Shown here: piece by piece, positions 16,592-28,198 of the stretch | How the letters are laid out: each line of letters begins with the position of its first letter | Numbering within the stretch: the stretch's first letter is position 1 | Virus record (IMG/VR): IMGVR_UViG_3300047496_000116 | Coordinates: 1 to 46,224 of that record | DNA: 46,224 bases | Strand: one strand, 5' to 3' | Source of the DNA: a virus | Translations under genes and position numbers: made by a program | The notes under the pieces: model-generated | What the model saw: only the letters and a program-made list of their open reading frames with translations | Told to the model about the DNA's origin: nothing | Database searches by the model: none

Positions 16592-17377
16592 TCACAGTAG
16601 TTCAATATAACAGAGAGCGTAGTAGCGCGGTGTCACTACAACACTAGAAGTGGCACCAGATACGCCTACGGTAGCGGTTGCACCGGTACCAGCTTTTACG
16701 GTAGTACTAGTAACATTCACACTATAACTTTTGCCCACGCCAGCACCAGAAGAAGTATCACCAGCTAAAGTCTGAGGTGCAATTAAACCCATGCCGCCAG
16801 TAGCAGCAGGTGAAGTAGCGCCAGCACCGACTACAAATAAGCCTTGCAGGTTGATACCAGAGCCGCCTAAGCCAATTGCGTTATGCACGCCATCACAAAT
16901 ACCCCAGCCAGTAGGCACGGCATTTATAGCCCCAGACCAAAGAACGATGATGTTTGCGGGCAGTCCGCCCTGAGCTTGCCAGACCGGCAGCGTACCGGCA
17001 CCGTTAACTGTAAGAGCCTGACCGGGAGTACCAATAGGTAATCTAACGGTGCTGCTACCGTTGTAGTAAAGCAGGTCGCCAGCGGTAGTGAAAGGTAGGC
17101 CCGGTGGAGCCGCCCAAGCTAAGCCCTGAGTAGCAGCCGCGTTTTTCGTCAGCACCCAGCCATCGGCTATACCCGTAGTGGGCAGTGTAGTTATTGTTGT
17201 GCCGGTGTAGCACATAATATCGCCCTTGTTGGCAAATACATTGAATGAAGCTGTCAGACTGGCATTGATGTAGTTAACTACCGTGCTCCAATCAATTGTC
17301 CACGATACGTTATCAACCACAGCATTAGCGGCGGTAATAGTATTGGGATTAGTCAAGTTGGTCAAAGGAGGCGCCAT
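16592..17377 (-). CDS. Tail fibre protein with collar-type domain
   Basis: A 261-residue protein. Residues 1-140 are fibre-like (GDIMCYTGTTITTLPTTG, GDLLYYNGSSTVRLP). The C-terminal part starts ANIIVLWSGAINAVPTGWGI followed by CDG, the signature of the phage tail collar domain, and ends RYYALCYIELL, the usual end of such fibres. It should form a trimer at the distal tail and touch the receptor. The ATG lies next to the stop of the large nozzle gene. Confidence 0.75.
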   Translation of the reverse strand: MAPPLTNLTNPNTITAANAVVDNVSWTIDWSTVVNYINASLTASFNVFANKGDIMCYTGTTITTLPTTGIADGWVLTKNAAATQGLAWAAPPGLPFTTAGDLLYYNGSSTVRLPIGTPGQALTVNGAGTLPVWQAQGGLPANIIVLWSGAINAVPTGWGICDGVHNAIGLGGSGINLQGLFVVGAGATSPAATGGMGLIAPQTLAGDTSSGAGVGKSYSVNVTSTTVKAGTGATATVGVSGATSSVVVTPRYYALCYIELL

Positions 17378-20300
17378 TATGGTCTCAAGCCTCCCATTGT
17401 GGTGACATAGGCAAGTGCAGCAAAATCTAGCGACTGACCTAAACCATTTGTAGTCAAAAGAAACTCGCAGTAAGGGCCTTCGCCGGTAGCTTCAAAATAG
17501 ACGTGCCTGATGTGGTCAGACGGGAAAGCCGAATAACCCAAGGTCCAATCCAAAAACTGTGTGCTACCGCCCAATATCGTTAGCCCCTGTGCTGGTGACC
17601 CTATCGTCTGGACACCTTCAGGGCTCATCGTCCTGACCATGGTGCCATCTTGCATCTTAGTATAGAAGAAGCTCGTGACGTTGAATAGCTGATTCTGGCC
17701 CTCGGTGATAACTTCGCCCTGTCTAAGCTCAATATTGCCCTGTATGTTAGGACCACTGACCAAAGCTAAATCTATCGTACCGGGTATAGGTACGCCATTA
17801 TAAGTATTACCAGTGTAGTGCTGTTGTAGTATGCCATCATATCCACCACCATACATGACACCTTGAAACTCAATACCACAAGCTACGGCAGTATTACTTT
17901 TAGTACTGAAGACGGGCGTGATAGCCTGCGGTGTCGGTGTTGGCACATTGTAGTTCATGATTATGGCGTGCTGGTTCTCGTAGGTGCTACTGACAGCATC
18001 AGTAATTGTAGGGAACCAAAACTGCATCTCTAGCGTATTTCTGTGGTGCACGGAGAAAGCTTGGCAGTTGTACAGCAGGTTACTGCCAGTTATCGGTAGA
18101 GTAACTATCGACTGAATAACATCTTGCATATTGAATGTTAGCGCCGCGTTAAGCAAGTTGGCATTAACCGTAAGGTTTGAGAAGGTGCGTATGCCGTTCG
18201 TGCTCATGTAGTACAGGTCATTCTGTACTTGGTTGAATGCGCGATTAGACATAAGCCCGTAATCCTTGGTCAGGATAGTAGCTTGATAAGTAGTGGCATC
18301 TGAAGTGACGCCATTACCCATAACCACGGCTATGCCGCGCTGGAAGCCCAACACCAAGACTTCTTGGTTATTGGTGTTAGTCAGCCGGAAAGATGTTAAC
18401 CCCGTAGGTAAACCTAGCCCAGGTATGGTGAAGGTGACAGCATCAGTAGCTTGTATCGGCACTGAAGTGACAAACCTGCTAGGTGAGCCCTGATTGGATA
18501 TCAGCACGTCATAGGCAGCATTAGAACCCGGGGCGAAGCCGAAGTAAGCCATGCGCTGGTTAAACTCAGCACAAAACAACGGCATACTGTAAGTCTTCTT
18601 GGTTAACTGAAAGACACCAGGCCAATTGCCGCTACCGCCATAGAGGAAGTTACCAATCTCAGATGTGCCATTCATGGTGAACCAGATTGATTGGTCCGGG
18701 CCATTAGTTATACCAAAGGGCTGAGCATTATTCACCGGCACGGCAAATTCAGAGATAGCACCAATCGGTGTTATCTTGCCGATGTTATTGCCAGCGGCTT
18801 CTGTGAAGTACATGTTGCCATCGCCGCCAAGGGTGATACCTTCCGGTTTAGATGATGCTGTTGGTACGATATATTCAGAAAATACGCCGGGCACAGTCAT
18901 AGCACCAATCTTATTAGCGCTAGCTTCAGTGAACCACAGGCGGCCATCAGAGCCAAGAGCGATATAGGATGGTACAGCGGCAGCGGTCGGCACATTGAAC
19001 TCAGTTATAGTGCCGCTGGTTGTGCAGGAGCCAATCTTGTTAGCACTAGTTGCTGACTCGCAAAAATACAAAATGCCATTAGCCGCGCATATACCGATAG
19101 GCAAACAGTTTGCAGTCAGACCGGCACTGTACTCAGTGATGGTGCCAGGCGTGCCAGTACCACCAGTAGGCGGCACAATCTTCGCTATCTTATTGTTGGT
19201 CATCTCGGTAAACCAGATGTTACCGTCACCGCCAGTAGCTTTACTGTTGTAGCAAATACCAACTGGGGCTGATGCAGCAGTTGTCAGGGCATATTCAGTC
19301 ACCACCCCGGCAGTAGTCATCATGCCGATGTAGTTGCCAGTCTCTGCCGTGAACCAGAGGTTAGTACCATCTGTGGTTATACCGATAGGACCAGACACAG
19401 CCGTTGTGGTCGGCAGCGGATAGGTCGTTATCGTGCCCGTGGTAGTTATAGCAGCGATGCTTTGAGTGGCGAACTCAGTGAACCACAGGCGGTTATCCGG
19501 CCCGGTGACAATACCGCGCAGGTTGGCAGAGCCAAGCAGCATTGTACCGATAGCATTCCCACTGGGCTCGCAGAACCACAAATTACTATCGCTGCCTACG
19601 CATATACCAAAGAGTGTGGTTGTAGACGGCGGCCCAGTAAACTCAGTGATGACGTTAGTGGTTACATTCAATCTAGCAATTATGCTGTGCAGGTAAGTGA
19701 ACCAGATATTGTTATCAGAACCAAGACAGATGCCTTGTGGTTGTGAATTATTTGTTGGAGTTTGAACCTCAGAGATGGTGCCAGTAACCGTGTTAATGAC
19801 ACCGACAGCATTAGTACCAGCATCAAGGAAATACATATTTCCACTACCACCAGGCCCGGCGCATATTTGATTAGTAGACGCCGTAGCCTGCAAGCCCGTA
19901 GTGTAGACAGTGGTGGCACCAGCAGGCACTGTGGCCTGAATGAAGTTGCTATTGGTACCTGTCCAGATACGACCATCCGGGCCAGCAAAACAACTGTAAG
20001 CAGCATGAGTCAACGTCATAGTGCTATTCAATGTTCCAGCAGTTGTGTACTGCTTCATTGAAGTAGTGCCAAAAACGACATATATAAAGGTGCCATCTGA
20101 GCAGATGTCCAAGGCACCAGTGACGGTGATTGTATAAGGTGTAGTCACACCAGCGGTAGTGGTAGCAGATATGATGGCATTGGACAGGTAGCCACACCAC
20201 AAACGACCATCAGGACCATTACAAATACAGGTGGGGTGCGGGTCAGCAGCGGCAAAAGTAGTGACTACCCCTAGTGGCGATATATTACCGATACCACTAC

Positions 20301-21024
20301 CAGTGACCAGACCGTTAAACCATACGTTGCCGTCATTACCCAAGCAGCATTTACCCGGGCTCGTCAAAGGGGCTGTTGGATAGTTGGCTATCATGGTACC
20401 AACGGTGAAAGTGCTTATCGGATAGCTGGTATCAAATTGGCCACCATTTGGATTGGTATTAGTTACCAGAGGCGTACCGACAAACGGCAGCGGTAACACG
20501 TTAGCAGCGGCTGTGCCAGTTATCTCTACTGGTTGAATAGAGCCATTAGTGTAGATAGTCATTGGCGTGACTTGCCCGGTCTGGTCAATGAACGACCGCA
20601 TACAGGGTAAGTTGGCTAATGAAGTGCTCAGTCCGGTGAGAGGTGCGTTATATGCTGTCTCTGTTTGGGTTGCCAGATTGTAAGAATATACCTGACCACC
20701 CACCTGAAATAGCATAGTTTGGTTGCCACCGAAGTCCTCGAAAACACCAAAGTCCATGAAGGCGGCGCCACTGTTAAAGACGGCGGCGCGCTGGGGCTGC
20801 CATCCAATACCAGTAGGGCTAGACCAAACACCCCGCGTAAGCATCTGGAAATTGTTGATAATACGCGCTTGATACTGCGTGCGAATGACTTCAGAAACAT
20901 AGCTCCATTGGCCCTCATTGCAAGTAAGTAAACCGACATTGAGCGAGTGTCCTTCGACACTTAATGGTGACTGGCTCGCGGGTGGCACGTAACCATTGTT
21001 TGATGTTGGTGGATTGATAGACAC
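17377..21024 (-). CDS. Tail nozzle/hub-like protein with inserted 14-repeat Vgb-like beta-propeller
   Basis: A 1215-residue protein in three parts. Residues 1-220 and 808-1215 look like a podovirus nozzle or hub (SVEGHSLNVGLL, FNQRMAYFGFAPGS, YDVLISNQGSPSRF, GFQRGIAVVMG). Residues about 221-807 hold 14 repeats of roughly 42 residues with the pattern G-(P/S)-D-G-x-(L/I)-W-F-T-E, then IGxxTTxGxxTEY, like virginiamycin B lyase (Vgb/SMP-30/NHL) blades. Fourteen blades fit two seven-bladed propellers. The GTG start overlaps the previous stop (TAGTG). Position after the adaptor gene supports a tail role. Vgb-type catalysis is not claimed; the propeller may bind host surface glycans. Confidence 0.75.
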   Translation of the reverse strand: MSINPPTSNNGYVPPASQSPLSVEGHSLNVGLLTCNEGQWSYVSEVIRTQYQARIINNFQMLTRGVWSSPTGIGWQPQRAAVFNSGAAFMDFGVFEDFGGNQTMLFQVGGQVYSYNLATQTETAYNAPLTGLSTSLANLPCMRSFIDQTGQVTPMTIYTNGSIQPVEITGTAAANVLPLPFVGTPLVTNTNPNGGQFDTSYPISTFTVGTMIANYPTAPLTSPGKCCLGNDGNVWFNGLVTGSGIGNISPLGVVTTFAAADPHPTCICNGPDGRLWCGYLSNAIISATTTAGVTTPYTITVTGALDICSDGTFIYVVFGTTSMKQYTTAGTLNSTMTLTHAAYSCFAGPDGRIWTGTNSNFIQATVPAGATTVYTTGLQATASTNQICAGPGGSGNMYFLDAGTNAVGVINTVTGTISEVQTPTNNSQPQGICLGSDNNIWFTYLHSIIARLNVTTNVITEFTGPPSTTTLFGICVGSDSNLWFCEPSGNAIGTMLLGSANLRGIVTGPDNRLWFTEFATQSIAAITTTGTITTYPLPTTTAVSGPIGITTDGTNLWFTAETGNYIGMMTTAGVVTEYALTTAASAPVGICYNSKATGGDGNIWFTEMTNNKIAKIVPPTGGTGTPGTITEYSAGLTANCLPIGICAANGILYFCESATSANKIGSCTTSGTITEFNVPTAAAVPSYIALGSDGRLWFTEASANKIGAMTVPGVFSEYIVPTASSKPEGITLGGDGNMYFTEAAGNNIGKITPIGAISEFAVPVNNAQPFGITNGPDQSIWFTMNGTSEIGNFLYGGSGNWPGVFQLTKKTYSMPLFCAEFNQRMAYFGFAPGSNAAYDVLISNQGSPSRFVTSVPIQATDAVTFTIPGLGLPTGLTSFRLTNTNNQEVLVLGFQRGIAVVMGNGVTSDATTYQATILTKDYGLMSNRAFNQVQNDLYYMSTNGIRTFSNLTVNANLLNAALTFNMQDVIQSIVTLPITGSNLLYNCQAFSVHHRNTLEMQFWFPTITDAVSSTYENQHAIIMNYNVPTPTPQAITPVFSTKSNTAVACGIEFQGVMYGGGYDGILQQHYTGNTYNGVPIPGTIDLALVSGPNIQGNIELRQGEVITEGQNQLFNVTSFFYTKMQDGTMVRTMSPEGVQTIGSPAQGLTILGGSTQFLDWTLGYSAFPSDHIRHVYFEATGEGPYCEFLLTTNGLGQSLDFAALAYVTTMGGLRP
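18604..20364 (-). repeat. Fourteen in-frame Vgb-like blade repeats
   Basis: A run of about 126-base units encodes blades such as GSDGRLWFTEASANKIGAMT and GGDGNMYFTEAAGNNIGKIT. The last eight blades are the most regular. Blade 7 (GSDSNLWFCEPSGNAIG) is truncated before blade 8 begins, marking a likely boundary between two seven-bladed propellers. Confidence 0.75.
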
Positions 21025-21599
21025 TATTTCTTCACCACGTTAGATATCTTCTTCTTAGCCTTCATGGCTGCCCACATATCCCCGTTGAGTAGCTTACCAT
21101 TCACATAGATGGGACGTGCGTGCAGTTTAGTCTCAGCATCATTAATAACGTGGTCTGGTATGCTGCCATGGTAGATGCCCATGTGCTGGCCAGTCTTCAA
21201 AGCATTCTCGTAAGCCTCATCTACATTATGAGTTTTGCCCTCGTAGATTGTAGGGAAAGACATCCAGTTGCCATTAGGCAGTCTACGTCTAGCTGAATAC
21301 TCACTGCCGTACTCTCTTGGATCTGGATGTTTCGGGTCTTCTGGATTATCTATCATCTGCCTTTGAGATAGGTCTATATTGCCCGGCGCTAGCAAATACT
21401 GAGAAGCAGGATGATTTTTTAAAACCGGATAACCTTGCGGCGTAGGCGAATATTCCACACCGGAAGTGCCCCATACAGGTTGCTTCTGTAGTGGTGTGTT
21501 GGTAGCCCCTAAACTAAACGAGCTTGGCTGACCGGCAGCATTAGTGCCAGTCTGTTGAGGTTCCCAAGTTGGCTCTGCTGCTTGTAATGGCTCTTGCAT
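21024..21599 (-). CDS. Virion-associated protein with NIDL-type domain
   Basis: A 191-residue protein. The disordered N-terminal third is rich in Gln, Thr and Pro. The rest contains LAPGNIDLSQRQMIDNPED, GNWMSFPTIYEGK, EAYENALKTGQHMGIYHGS, a pattern I associate with a domain found in many podophage virion or ejection proteins. A basic tail ends the protein (AMKAKKKISNVVKK). It lies between the adaptor and nozzle genes. Exact role unknown. Confidence 0.6.
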   Translation of the reverse strand: MQEPLQAAEPTWEPQQTGTNAAGQPSSFSLGATNTPLQKQPVWGTSGVEYSPTPQGYPVLKNHPASQYLLAPGNIDLSQRQMIDNPEDPKHPDPREYGSEYSARRRLPNGNWMSFPTIYEGKTHNVDEAYENALKTGQHMGIYHGSIPDHVINDAETKLHARPIYVNGKLLNGDMWAAMKAKKKISNVVKK

Positions 21600-21600
21600 A

Positions 21601-21972
21601 TCATACCGGTGTCCTTGTAGGACTATTAGCAGTAGACGGCAGCGGCTGCGCTACATACGTTGGCTTACCTTGCACTATTTGCCACTGGCCAGCACCATAG
21701 GTAGTGGGCTCACTTGGCGCGGTAGCTGGTGCAAAACCAGCCTGATACCCGAAGGCATCCATGAAGCAATCAGAGCCATAGTTATTATTAGCCGTGGTAC
21801 CGTTAGCCGGTCCCTGTATTTGCTGGCCTTGAAATGAAGGCGCCCAATTACCCGCCGCACGGGCCAGGTACTGCGCTTGGGTATACGTGCTGTTGTTGCC
21901 GCTATCAGTCGGCCCCAGCAAAGACTGTGGAGACCAGTAATAGTACTCTGCCCATATGCTCTTTAGACTCAC
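21601..21972 (-). CDS. Hypothetical structural protein
   Basis: A 123-residue protein starting at GTG 21972, which overlaps the adaptor stop (GTGA). AAGGGGG lies about 10 bases upstream. It is rich in Tyr, Gln, Pro and Ala (YYWSPQSLLGPTDSGNNST) and has no clear fold or membrane part. It lies in the tail-assembly block, so it is probably a minor virion protein. The low-complexity C-terminus ends in PTRTPV. Confidence 0.55.
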   Translation of the reverse strand: MSLKSIWAEYYYWSPQSLLGPTDSGNNSTYTQAQYLARAAGNWAPSFQGQQIQGPANGTTANNNYGSDCFMDAFGYQAGFAPATAPSEPTTYGAGQWQIVQGKPTYVAQPLPSTANSPTRTPV

Positions 21973-22742
21973 CCGAAGTAGCCCCCTTGTCGCCCACGGC
22001 CATAGCCGCCCTGATTCATCCTCATCATTCTAACGCCCTTGCGGACTTCTGAAGCAGGCTGAGATGCCAGTTTAATCCTACTCAGCACTTGGTCAACCAA
22101 AGCATCAAGCATCATCTCTCTGCCTTCTGCTAAGTCTACTTCCAAAAACTTCCAGGCCCATGCCCAGATGCCATGTTCGTAAGCTGTCGGCCAAAGTATC
22201 TGGCTAGATGAACTAATCAATGGTGGCGCATTTAGTGCGGCTTGATATTGCAGGGTGTAGTTAGTGTCCGGTATTGGATATACTCTAACCATAGGGATTG
22301 GATTAAAGGCACCAGTAGGGAAGTCTGTTTGCCTGTCGTATGGCAACTGCACTATGTACTGTGGTGGCCCACTCCAAACAACAGTCTGGTCCGGCCACTT
22401 GTTCATGTAGTCTTCGTACAGCATGAACTTTAGATGACGGTCGTAGTTGCCACCGGGAGTGATGTTATACCACCCATGGTAGCGTAAGGCTTCACCGCTA
22501 ATGCCAAGGTCAAGCGGATAGTCAGACATACCAGCTTGTATAGGCAAACTAAACTTAGCATTGTCCATGTAGGTACGGACTTGCAAGGTCAGGTGCCTGT
22601 GCGCAAAGTCAATCTTATACTTAGCTGCGTTCTGAGTCTTGCTTAATTGGCCGCCATCGAAGACGGCTGTGCTAACCACTTGAGGAAGCACAGCCAAATT
22701 GAGCACACTATTAGTGGCTTGAAACCACGTTGAGTTAGCCAT
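21969..22742 (-). CDS. Head-tail adaptor (tail tubular protein A / gp4-like)
   Basis: A 257-residue protein. The segment MVRVYPIPDTNYTLQYQAAL followed by ILWPTAYEHGIW and a helix (AEGREMMLDALVDQVLSRIK) matches the layout of podovirus head-completion or tail-tube proteins that bind under the portal. A Gly/Arg-rich tail (GYGRGRQGGYFG) ends it. Its place two genes after the capsid gene fits this role. The ATG follows GGGAGGG. Confidence 0.65.
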   Translation of the reverse strand: MANSTWFQATNSVLNLAVLPQVVSTAVFDGGQLSKTQNAAKYKIDFAHRHLTLQVRTYMDNAKFSLPIQAGMSDYPLDLGISGEALRYHGWYNITPGGNYDRHLKFMLYEDYMNKWPDQTVVWSGPPQYIVQLPYDRQTDFPTGAFNPIPMVRVYPIPDTNYTLQYQAALNAPPLISSSSQILWPTAYEHGIWAWAWKFLEVDLAEGREMMLDALVDQVLSRIKLASQPASEVRKGVRMMRMNQGGYGRGRQGGYFG

Positions 22743-25901: not shown

Positions 25902-26193
25902 CTTTATTGCTCTCCGTGAATTTAGCTATGCTCTCGGCTTGTCTGAATAACATACCGAAGCCCCACATTATTGTACAGTGAGTTTCGTATGCTATTTTTT
26001 CTTCCGGTGTCCTACCGGGTACACTAGTGTATGCACTACCTATACTTAAGGCCATCTTCTTCAATATTTTGTAGCCGGGCTGATTGACCAATGCTTTTAG
26101 CTGATGGTACTGCTCAGTCTTTCTGGCTTCAGAATCCTTGGCTTGGGATAGTTTGCGCTCCTTGGTTTCCCGGGGCCTGACCATTTTGCTCAT
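25882..26193 (-). CDS. Small charged protein between portal and scaffold
   Basis: A 103-residue protein whose first 65 bases overlap the portal gene end in another frame. Basic N-terminus (RPRETKERKLSQAKDSEARK), then a helical body with PGYKILKKMALSIGSAY and MWGFGMLFRQAESI. A GGAGC ribosome site lies eight bases before the ATG. Many podoviruses carry a small gene here. Its function is unknown. Confidence 0.6.
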   Translation of the reverse strand: MSKMVRPRETKERKLSQAKDSEARKTEQYHQLKALVNQPGYKILKKMALSIGSAYTSVPGRTPEEKIAYETHCTIMWGFGMLFRQAESIAKFTESNKDDNDGW

Positions 26194-28198
26194 TGGGTGG
26201 TGCTCCTTGTTGCTGTGGCGTGTTGGCTTGGTCGAAGCTCAACTGCCGTGCTTTATGCTGCTGCTCTTGGAAAGCTTGTACTATCTCTGGGTTTTGCATG
26301 GCCGACTGCAATGCTGCCATCTGCACCTGTGGGTTAGCTGCTGCCAACTGCATCGGGCTCATCATGTCTTGTGGGTCAAGCGTGACATTTAACCGGCTCA
26401 ATATCTCCACCCACAGCTTCTGCAATACCATCGGGGCATTGGGCAGAGTGGCGCCAATCTCTTGGGTCATCTGGGCAGCCTGTATGAGCTGCTGCATCTC
26501 CATACCTTTATTTAAGGCACCCAATACACCATTAACTTGTATCGTGCGCTCAACATTGGCAAAGTCCTGATAGTTAATAGTCTTCTCTTGTATGCGGTCT
26601 TGCAGGGCCTTCTCGTAAACAAGGTTGCCTTGCGCGTCAGGTATAAGGTTCTTGCGCGAAGACTCATAAACGCCCTGGCAAAGCTCGGTGAGCATGTCGC
26701 TGAATTTCTCCACAGCATTATCAATGAAGCTAGAGCCGCTACTTTCATCACTGGTGACTTCAGTAGCAGTCTTACGACTAGACATGGCACGGGTGGCACT
26801 ATCTGTAGTGAGACCATCAATACCCATCTTGGTACGTATCTCAGAGCCCCAAAACTTCATATCTTGGAAAGCTAGCTGCAAGCCTGTAGCGGGCACGGGC
26901 ACTGGTGCGATAACCGCCAAGCCTAATGGATTGTGGCTGACTATGTTGGAGTAGCCGGGCGTATAAGAGATGTCATTCTCATCCCGGAAAGCATCGGCAT
27001 ATACAAGGTTGGCCGGGAATTGCGTGGCTACCGCCGCGTTGAGCATAACTGCTTGCAGTACGTTCTTTTGCCGGTAATAGGTGAGCGCTTTCTCCACGCC
27101 CGAGATTCCATAGCCAATATTTGTAAACCAATCAATGTAGTTATCCACCAGGACATGGGGATGTCCGCTGTCCGAGGGGTTTTCTTCAACCTTAATAATA
27201 CGCGGCCATCTGAAGCCATTATTAAGCGCGACGTGAAAATAGGTGTCATAGAACTCTTCGCCTTCAAACTTCAGATACGGGAAGTGAAAGATATAGACGG
27301 GGACCAGCTTGGTAAACCCGGTGATACGAGCAGGATATGTCCCGAAGATGGGCGATGTACCAATAACCTCTGGGGCACGGGTTCTAAAATTGTTATCCCA
27401 AGCATATATCTGCTCAACACTAAAAGGAGTAAGCCCCTCCAGATTCTGGTAGGCGTCATTTCCATAGTCATCTTTTGCGTCCACCAAGTCAGGTAGGTAG
27501 TTAAACGTCTGCACAATGGTAGCAGGATAGGCCGTATTGGTCATGTCAAGGTGCGGGTCTATCCACAAGTCAAACACATCTAATGGTCTAATCTGAGGAC
27601 CACTAAAGGTGACTTCTTTGATACGCGCCTGTTTGCCCAGCGCCTTATTGATATCCTTCGGGTCAGCACCCATGGCCTTGAGGTGCTTCTTGAGTAGTGG
27701 GCTAGACTCAACTGAGCTTAGTCTTCTGATGCGCTCGTTGTCTCTCCATGCCCAAATGAGTGCCGTGGTGCCACGAATGATATTCTGCTTGATAACACGC
27801 TCAAACGCCCTGCGCGTCTTAGCCTTGCGGTGCATGTATATCTGTTGGTCTTGAATAGCTTGGATAACGTCTTGCGCTTCATCTTGACGACTAGTAACAG
27901 TGAGCCACGTGTACCCCCGGGGCATGAGAGCATTGCTTATCTTTTCTGCGAGCTTGTTGACGTTATCGAAGATGTCTGTCTCTCCCATATCACTATCGTC
28001 AATCCAATCCATACCACCAGAATCAGGTAGCCGTCTATAACAGAGGTAAGCTTCATCACACTCTCTCCATTTAACTTCTAAGGGTCTGCGAGCATCATGC
28101 CAGTAGAGCTTCCACTGCCACAAGTGCATTGCCAAGCGGTTCATATAATCACTGTCAAAGGGTGGCAGTTCTGATTGTTTGTACAGCAATTTGGCCAT
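26129..28198 (-). CDS. Portal (head-tail connector) protein
   Basis: A 689-residue protein with portal features. The N-terminal wing is helical (LHVQ-like LAMHLWQWKLYWHDARRPLE). Mid-protein has FDLWIDPHLDMTNTAYPATI and KALTYYRQKNVLQAVMLNAA. A long helical clip/barrel region follows (KMGIDGLTTDSATRAMSSRK), and the tail is very rich in Gln and Ala. Length fits podovirus connectors (about 550-720). Twelve copies should form the DNA channel. It begins at the stop of the terminase gene, the usual order. Confidence 0.8.
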   Translation of the reverse strand: MAKLLYKQSELPPFDSDYMNRLAMHLWQWKLYWHDARRPLEVKWRECDEAYLCYRRLPDSGGMDWIDDSDMGETDIFDNVNKLAEKISNALMPRGYTWLTVTSRQDEAQDVIQAIQDQQIYMHRKAKTRRAFERVIKQNIIRGTTALIWAWRDNERIRRLSSVESSPLLKKHLKAMGADPKDINKALGKQARIKEVTFSGPQIRPLDVFDLWIDPHLDMTNTAYPATIVQTFNYLPDLVDAKDDYGNDAYQNLEGLTPFSVEQIYAWDNNFRTRAPEVIGTSPIFGTYPARITGFTKLVPVYIFHFPYLKFEGEEFYDTYFHVALNNGFRWPRIIKVEENPSDSGHPHVLVDNYIDWFTNIGYGISGVEKALTYYRQKNVLQAVMLNAAVATQFPANLVYADAFRDENDISYTPGYSNIVSHNPLGLAVIAPVPVPATGLQLAFQDMKFWGSEIRTKMGIDGLTTDSATRAMSSRKTATEVTSDESSGSSFIDNAVEKFSDMLTELCQGVYESSRKNLIPDAQGNLVYEKALQDRIQEKTINYQDFANVERTIQVNGVLGALNKGMEMQQLIQAAQMTQEIGATLPNAPMVLQKLWVEILSRLNVTLDPQDMMSPMQLAAANPQVQMAALQSAMQNPEIVQAFQEQQHKARQLSFDQANTPQQQGAPPNEQNGQAPGNQGAQTIPSQGF

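Follow-up and report, generated by a model that had tools for sequence, protein, structure and literature searches.

The window analysed here, an IMG/VR stretch of viral DNA of 46,224 bases, encodes on its minus strand a complete nozzle protein of 1215 residues with tandem propellers of the virginiamycin B lyase (Vgb) type (17377-21024), recognized as a single open reading frame with a GTG start, no internal stop and a match to the Pfam family PF24684. The evidence presented below makes it probable that the two propellers lie between blades 2 and 3 of the nozzle core and act as non-catalytic host-surface binders at the tail tip. Together with a second phage described below, this protein indicates that a resistance-enzyme fold entered the DNA-ejection nozzle of short-tailed phages on at least two independent occasions, once in the slot of the tip domain. 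With it, the idea that the nozzle is a host-contact device becomes testable, and a natural series of 0, 7 and 14 blades is at hand for asking how tail tips grow.

Two blocks of seven Vgb-type repeats

A reading of this DNA made from the letters alone (the sequence-only reading) had claimed 14 Vgb-type repeats, and these are found as two blocks of seven, marked by Pfam matches and by an LWF-type motif at residues 234, 275, 316, 353, 397, 440 and 482 (repeats 1-7) and 513, 556, 603, 652, 696, 738 and 780 (repeats 8-14). The spacing of the repeats is 37-49 residues, with the exception of a step of 31 at the boundary between repeats 7 and 8. Repeats 7 (IGTMLLGS) and 14 (IGNFLYGG) are truncated at the same point, as is the C-terminus of genuine Vgb (NKIGQLIY); this shared truncation and the 31-residue step are as expected from two separately closed seven-bladed propellers. 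The Vgb block does lie between two flanks as first proposed, but its limits, earlier set at residues 221-807, are refined to 205-498 for propeller A (19531-20412, minus strand) and 499-796 for propeller B (18637-19530, minus strand).

The whole protein matches the Pfam Vgb_lyase family (PF24684) with an E-value of 6.7e-108, and each half on its own passes the curated cut-off of 50 (block A: E 4.1e-33, 114.9 bits; block B: E 1.3e-80, 270.8 bits). A loose form of the repeat motif was counted 12 times within the insert and not at all in the flanks, against a mean of 0.46 and a maximum of 4 in 2000 shuffles; these counts, in conjunction with the Pfam E-values, exclude a chance origin of the repeats. 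A search of a viral fold library recovered distant propellers only, and the protein as a whole has no match in PHROGs.

The proposal of two complete seven-bladed propellers is upheld in full for B, which in the model of the full-length protein is a closed Vgb-type propeller that aligns structurally with Vgb (PDB: 2z2n) at Z 29.0 over 264 residues (2.3 A, 36% identity). This AlphaFold2 model, computed from a shallow alignment, has a mean pLDDT of 41.6 and is poor outside propeller B, with A at a pLDDT of about 30-45. The assignment of A as a seven-bladed Vgb-type propeller thus derives from its seven repeats and from the match of its sequence to Vgb (PDB: 2qc5) at E 9.5e-29.

The flanks constitute one nozzle protein

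The N-terminal flank (residues 1-199; 20428-21024, minus strand) aligns with the N-termini of insert-free nozzle proteins from L102 and L103 and appears to comprise the platform strand(s) and blades 1-2 of a core propeller, with blades 3-7 and the remaining platform assigned to the C-terminal flank (residues 797-1215; 17380-18636, minus strand). An hhalign comparison of the latter with the L102/P0001 nozzle gives 99.1%. That the two flanks belong together, as the sequence-only reading had supposed, is established by a relative, a continuous 569-residue protein from locus L106 which lacks Vgb repeats and matches both flanks. Its identity is 45% with residues 15-170 of the window protein and 39% with residues 810-1214, with 24 residues separating the matched parts, and on its contig the genes for the major capsid protein (MCP), the adaptor and the fibre are arranged as in the window. 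No relative with a continuous non-nozzle fold was found, those recovered carrying either no repeats or seven.

When the L106 protein was modelled with AlphaFold2 (20 aligned rows; pLDDT 66, pTM 0.71), the 19 top-ranking PDB entries in a Foldseek comparison were exclusively tail structures of short-tailed phages, including those of Pa223, VP1, P22, A4, Pan3, Sf6, SU10, E1004, Pam1, T7, HRP29 and GP4. In VIA-align comparisons the model reaches Z 24.1 over 422 residues with the Pa223 tail protein, 21.5 with both P22 gp10 and SU10, and 21.0 with the phicrAss001 muzzle. Given that many unrelated propellers reach Z 20, the assignment of the nozzle fold rests on coverage of the whole length and not on the Z-score alone. 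At the sequence level, a profile of the nozzle family matches 9k09_U, described as 'Tail tubular protein B', with an E-value of 2.7e-14, and 9nwi_Y with an E-value of 1e-5, but has no significant match to T7 gp12 or SU10 gp17. Kinship with P22 gp10 and T7 is seen at the level of fold, through the L106 model. Taken together, the flanks are those of a single short-tailed-phage nozzle protein whose core, as modelled, is itself a seven-bladed propeller, so that each chain would contain three propellers.

The insertion site

In the L106 model the site of the window's insertion maps to a loop that is bounded by strands 154-156 and 189-193 and preceded by two blades, the blade count being a reading of the strand list. 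The loop is of low confidence, with residues 162-174 below pLDDT 50. By this strand assignment the insertion probably separates core blades 2 and 3. In 9k09_U, approximately 250 additional residues are present at this position. The nozzle domains of SU10 sit between blades 2 and 3 (PMC9509320), as does the IG1 domain of the phicrAss001 muzzle (PMC10172136), and the nozzle tip of T7 is reached through a loop of blade 3 (PMC6702177). The position shared with the SU10 and phicrAss001 domains suggests that the Vgb block occupies the nozzle-tip slot; for T7 gp12 and SU10 gp17 the correspondence is structural and by strand counting, given the lack of a sequence match.

Gene neighbourhood

The order of genes in the window, portal - MCP - adaptor - nozzle - fibre, is that expected around a short-tailed-phage nozzle. 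The portal protein (26129-28198, minus strand; phrog_332 connector, E 5e-10) is 73% identical to that of L002, a closer relative than L106, and the MCP is assigned by position and conservation, being without a family match. The adaptor (21969-22742, minus strand) belongs to the SU10_adaptor family (PF24175, E 3e-7) and would form the ring on which the nozzle sits. Directly downstream of the nozzle lies a collar/tail-fibre-like protein (16592-17377, minus strand) matching the tail families phrog_9851, phrog_5795 and phrog_1800, which is retained in L002 (55% identity) and L106 (38%). A gene for a 191-residue protein (21024-21599, minus strand) separates the nozzle from the gene at 21601-21972; as the L002 counterpart of the latter directly adjoins the nozzle, the 191-residue gene reflects an insertion in the window or a loss in L002.

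Evolution of the 0, 7 and 14-blade series

L002 has one seven-repeat propeller at the site where the window has two and L106 none, and the same site is therefore known with 0, 7 and 14 blades. Searches of IMG/VR for direct relatives of the whole protein, the C-terminal flank and the portal returned only L002. A scan of the same database with a profile of the C-terminal flank and its insert-free homologues recovered 25 loci, the L002 contig among them; Vgb repeats are present in none of the other 24, which encode proteins of 498-573 residues and fall into about eight distinct groups.

Propeller B groups with the L002 propeller in the tree (support 100/99), whereas A, which L002 lacks, forms a long branch elsewhere. 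This placement led us to reject a recent duplication of B as the source of A. Propeller A would instead stem either from an ancient duplication, followed by its loss from L002, or from a separate capture; the data are compatible with both. Between the window and L002, propeller B retains 51% identity, as against 77% and 73% for the flanks and 88% for the MCP. Synonymous divergence (dS) between the two is saturated, making dN/dS uninformative, and B may have diverged faster because constraint on it was relaxed and not because it was adapting to a receptor. It is conceivable, if somewhat less than probable, that phages generally use the loop between blades 2 and 3 to dock and exchange complete host-contact modules, and that this lineage stacks propellers there (0, 7, 14 blades), so that each tail ring would hold eighteen propellers belonging to two unrelated kinds.

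Vgb-type propellers in other phages and their annotation

A separate acquisition is represented by L023 (IMGVR 3300004088_000018), in which a nozzle-family protein (phrog_3287) contains an inserted seven-repeat Vgb propeller (PF24684, E 1.5e-66). This phage also has a portal, an MCP and an adaptor, the nozzle gene adjoining those of the latter two. Its portal has no match to that of the window. The insertion lies earlier than in the window, within blade 1 as judged by alignment and by eye; the nozzle also contains some 170-200 residues of additional, non-Vgb sequence, and its propeller is not sister to propeller B. L023 is an unrelated phage that gained a Vgb propeller separately, in a different nozzle loop. 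Its nozzle gene (L023:7134-10934) is followed by one for a pectate-lyase-like spike.

Free-standing Vgb-type propellers were also observed in tail gene clusters, beside tail collar fibres (L016:8442-9590), a tail protein (L020:5445-6899), and a tape measure and minor tail protein (L092:1273-2211); all three are candidates for false annotation as a 'resistance gene'. Related propeller repeats occur in two further phage ORFs, as a pair of consecutive propellers with a repeated linker (L039:5633-7732) and as a single propeller that follows an ARGDHDH tail-fibre-like segment (L047:6062-7687). Among annotated phages, Vgb matches are confined to the genuine vgb cargo of S. suis phages, located beside a streptogramin acetyltransferase. 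A 'virginiamycin B lyase' match in a virome may represent a tail protein devoid of the catalytic histidines, as opposed to a resistance gene.

Two labels encountered among the nozzle homologues also merit comment. The only match of the C-terminal flank among annotated phages is the record 'Microcystis phage MaAM05' (L003; MW495066.1), which carries lepA, proS, ftsH and a potassium transporter, and whose nozzle shares 79% identity with that of a Vampirovibrio chlorellavorus contig (in the comparisons with L102 and L103, the 79% is to L102); the record has the appearance of a prophage-bearing bacterial contig, not of a Microcystis phage. Many nozzle homologues match phrog_5107 ('amidase') over nearly their full length, with E-values down to 7e-79. 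Since phrog_3287 (virion protein) and phrog_578 (head closure) are hit by these homologues as well, we reject the amidase label for them, and the label of phrog_5107 itself is probably wrong.

Catalytic residues and proposed role

The vgb of S. suis phages, used as a control, retains two histidines (in PHAI and PHGL) which we take to be the Vgb active-site-region residues, that of PHGL presumably being H270, the residue replaced in 2z2p, a structure described as catalytically inactive Vgb H270A. The two are replaced by E and F in propeller B, by Q and F in A and by L and Y in the L002 propeller. Both are likewise replaced in L016 and L020, and the PHA[IL] and PHG[IL] motifs are absent from L023. 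With both histidines lost, the window propellers are, on these alignments, unlikely to be streptogramin lyases. CylK, for example, is a related propeller whose catalysis relies on other sites (PMC8916777), so that the loss of single residues leaves room for another chemistry.

Under the proposed scheme, two seven-bladed Vgb-type propellers, arranged one after the other and each closed on itself, would split the core propeller of the nozzle after blade 2 and before blade 3, and this block may replace or extend the nozzle-tip domain. By analogy with characterized nozzles, six copies would assemble into a ring with the propellers exposed at or around the tail tip, amounting to 12 copies per virion for a nozzle of the usual hexameric form. 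The propellers might then bind a ligand on the host surface, probably a glycan or other envelope component, and such binding could help to position the tail or trigger its opening. Binding to the host surface appears to be the best-supported reading, given the tip position by analogy, the repeated recruitment of the fold to tails, the faster divergence of B, and the beta-propeller domains of the phi11 receptor-binding protein and PhiKZ gp131C (PMC4901313).

It is rather unlikely that the propellers are purely structural, lengthening or stabilizing the nozzle tip or aiding gating without a specific ligand. The domains of T7 and SU10 in or near this slot do form the physical tip and rearrange on ejection (PMC6702177, PMC9509320), and a number of blades varying among relatives would suit a tolerant spacer; yet the type of domain varies from phage to phage and B diverges faster than the flanks, which better suits a changing partner, albeit without constituting proof. 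An enzymatic function of some other chemistry, such as a glycan or ester lyase or hydrolase degrading the host envelope at the tip, is distinctly unlikely. Vgb, SMP-30 and CylK illustrate how readily the fold turns catalytic (PMC8916777), and Pfam SGL does match the window protein weakly, but the histidines described above are gone from A, B and L002, propeller B contains no histidine at all, and no other catalytic signature was found.

An artefact of assembly or annotation, joining an unrelated Vgb gene to a nozzle gene, might be considered because the 14-repeat form is seen in one copy only. We regard it as highly improbable: the frame is open and without stops, its base composition is similar throughout, and A and B, at approximately 34% identity, are too different for mis-assembly of a repeat. 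It is contradicted by L002, an independent contig with a like block, of one propeller, at the same site. Host-surface binding by the inserted propellers remains the reading that we favour.

Comparison with known systems

The closest architectural counterparts of the window protein are SU10 gp17 (PDB: 7z47, 7z4f), T7 gp12 and P22 gp10, which share with it a seven-bladed core propeller, a platform and an extra domain within the core. In SU10 this domain likewise lies between blades 2 and 3, and the adaptor encoded upstream in the window is of the SU10 family; however, the inserts of SU10 are Ig-like and the T7 tip is a beta-barrel, whereas the window inserts Vgb-type propellers. The phicrAss001 muzzle gp44 (PDB: 7qok) is similarly a propeller resembling a nozzle, whose large insert faces the host, IG1 being placed between blades 2 and 3, and its distal domain has been proposed to contact the cell surface (PMC10172136). 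Its insert consists of Ig and 'crass fold' domains in place of propellers. Vgb itself (PDB: 2z2n, 2qc5; PF24684) has the seven-bladed propeller in common with propeller B, but is a free enzyme with both histidines, as opposed to a part of a virion protein that has lost them. Tail beta-propellers with a proved or proposed receptor-binding role are known from phi11 gp45 and PhiKZ gp131C (PMC4901313), the former a five-bladed trimer on a siphovirus baseplate and the latter a free C-terminal propeller on a myovirus baseplate; neither is inserted in a nozzle. A literature search of partial coverage found no precedent for a propeller within a nozzle. Thus, the nozzle and its insertion slot are known, and the new element is the Vgb-type propeller as the module that fills this slot.
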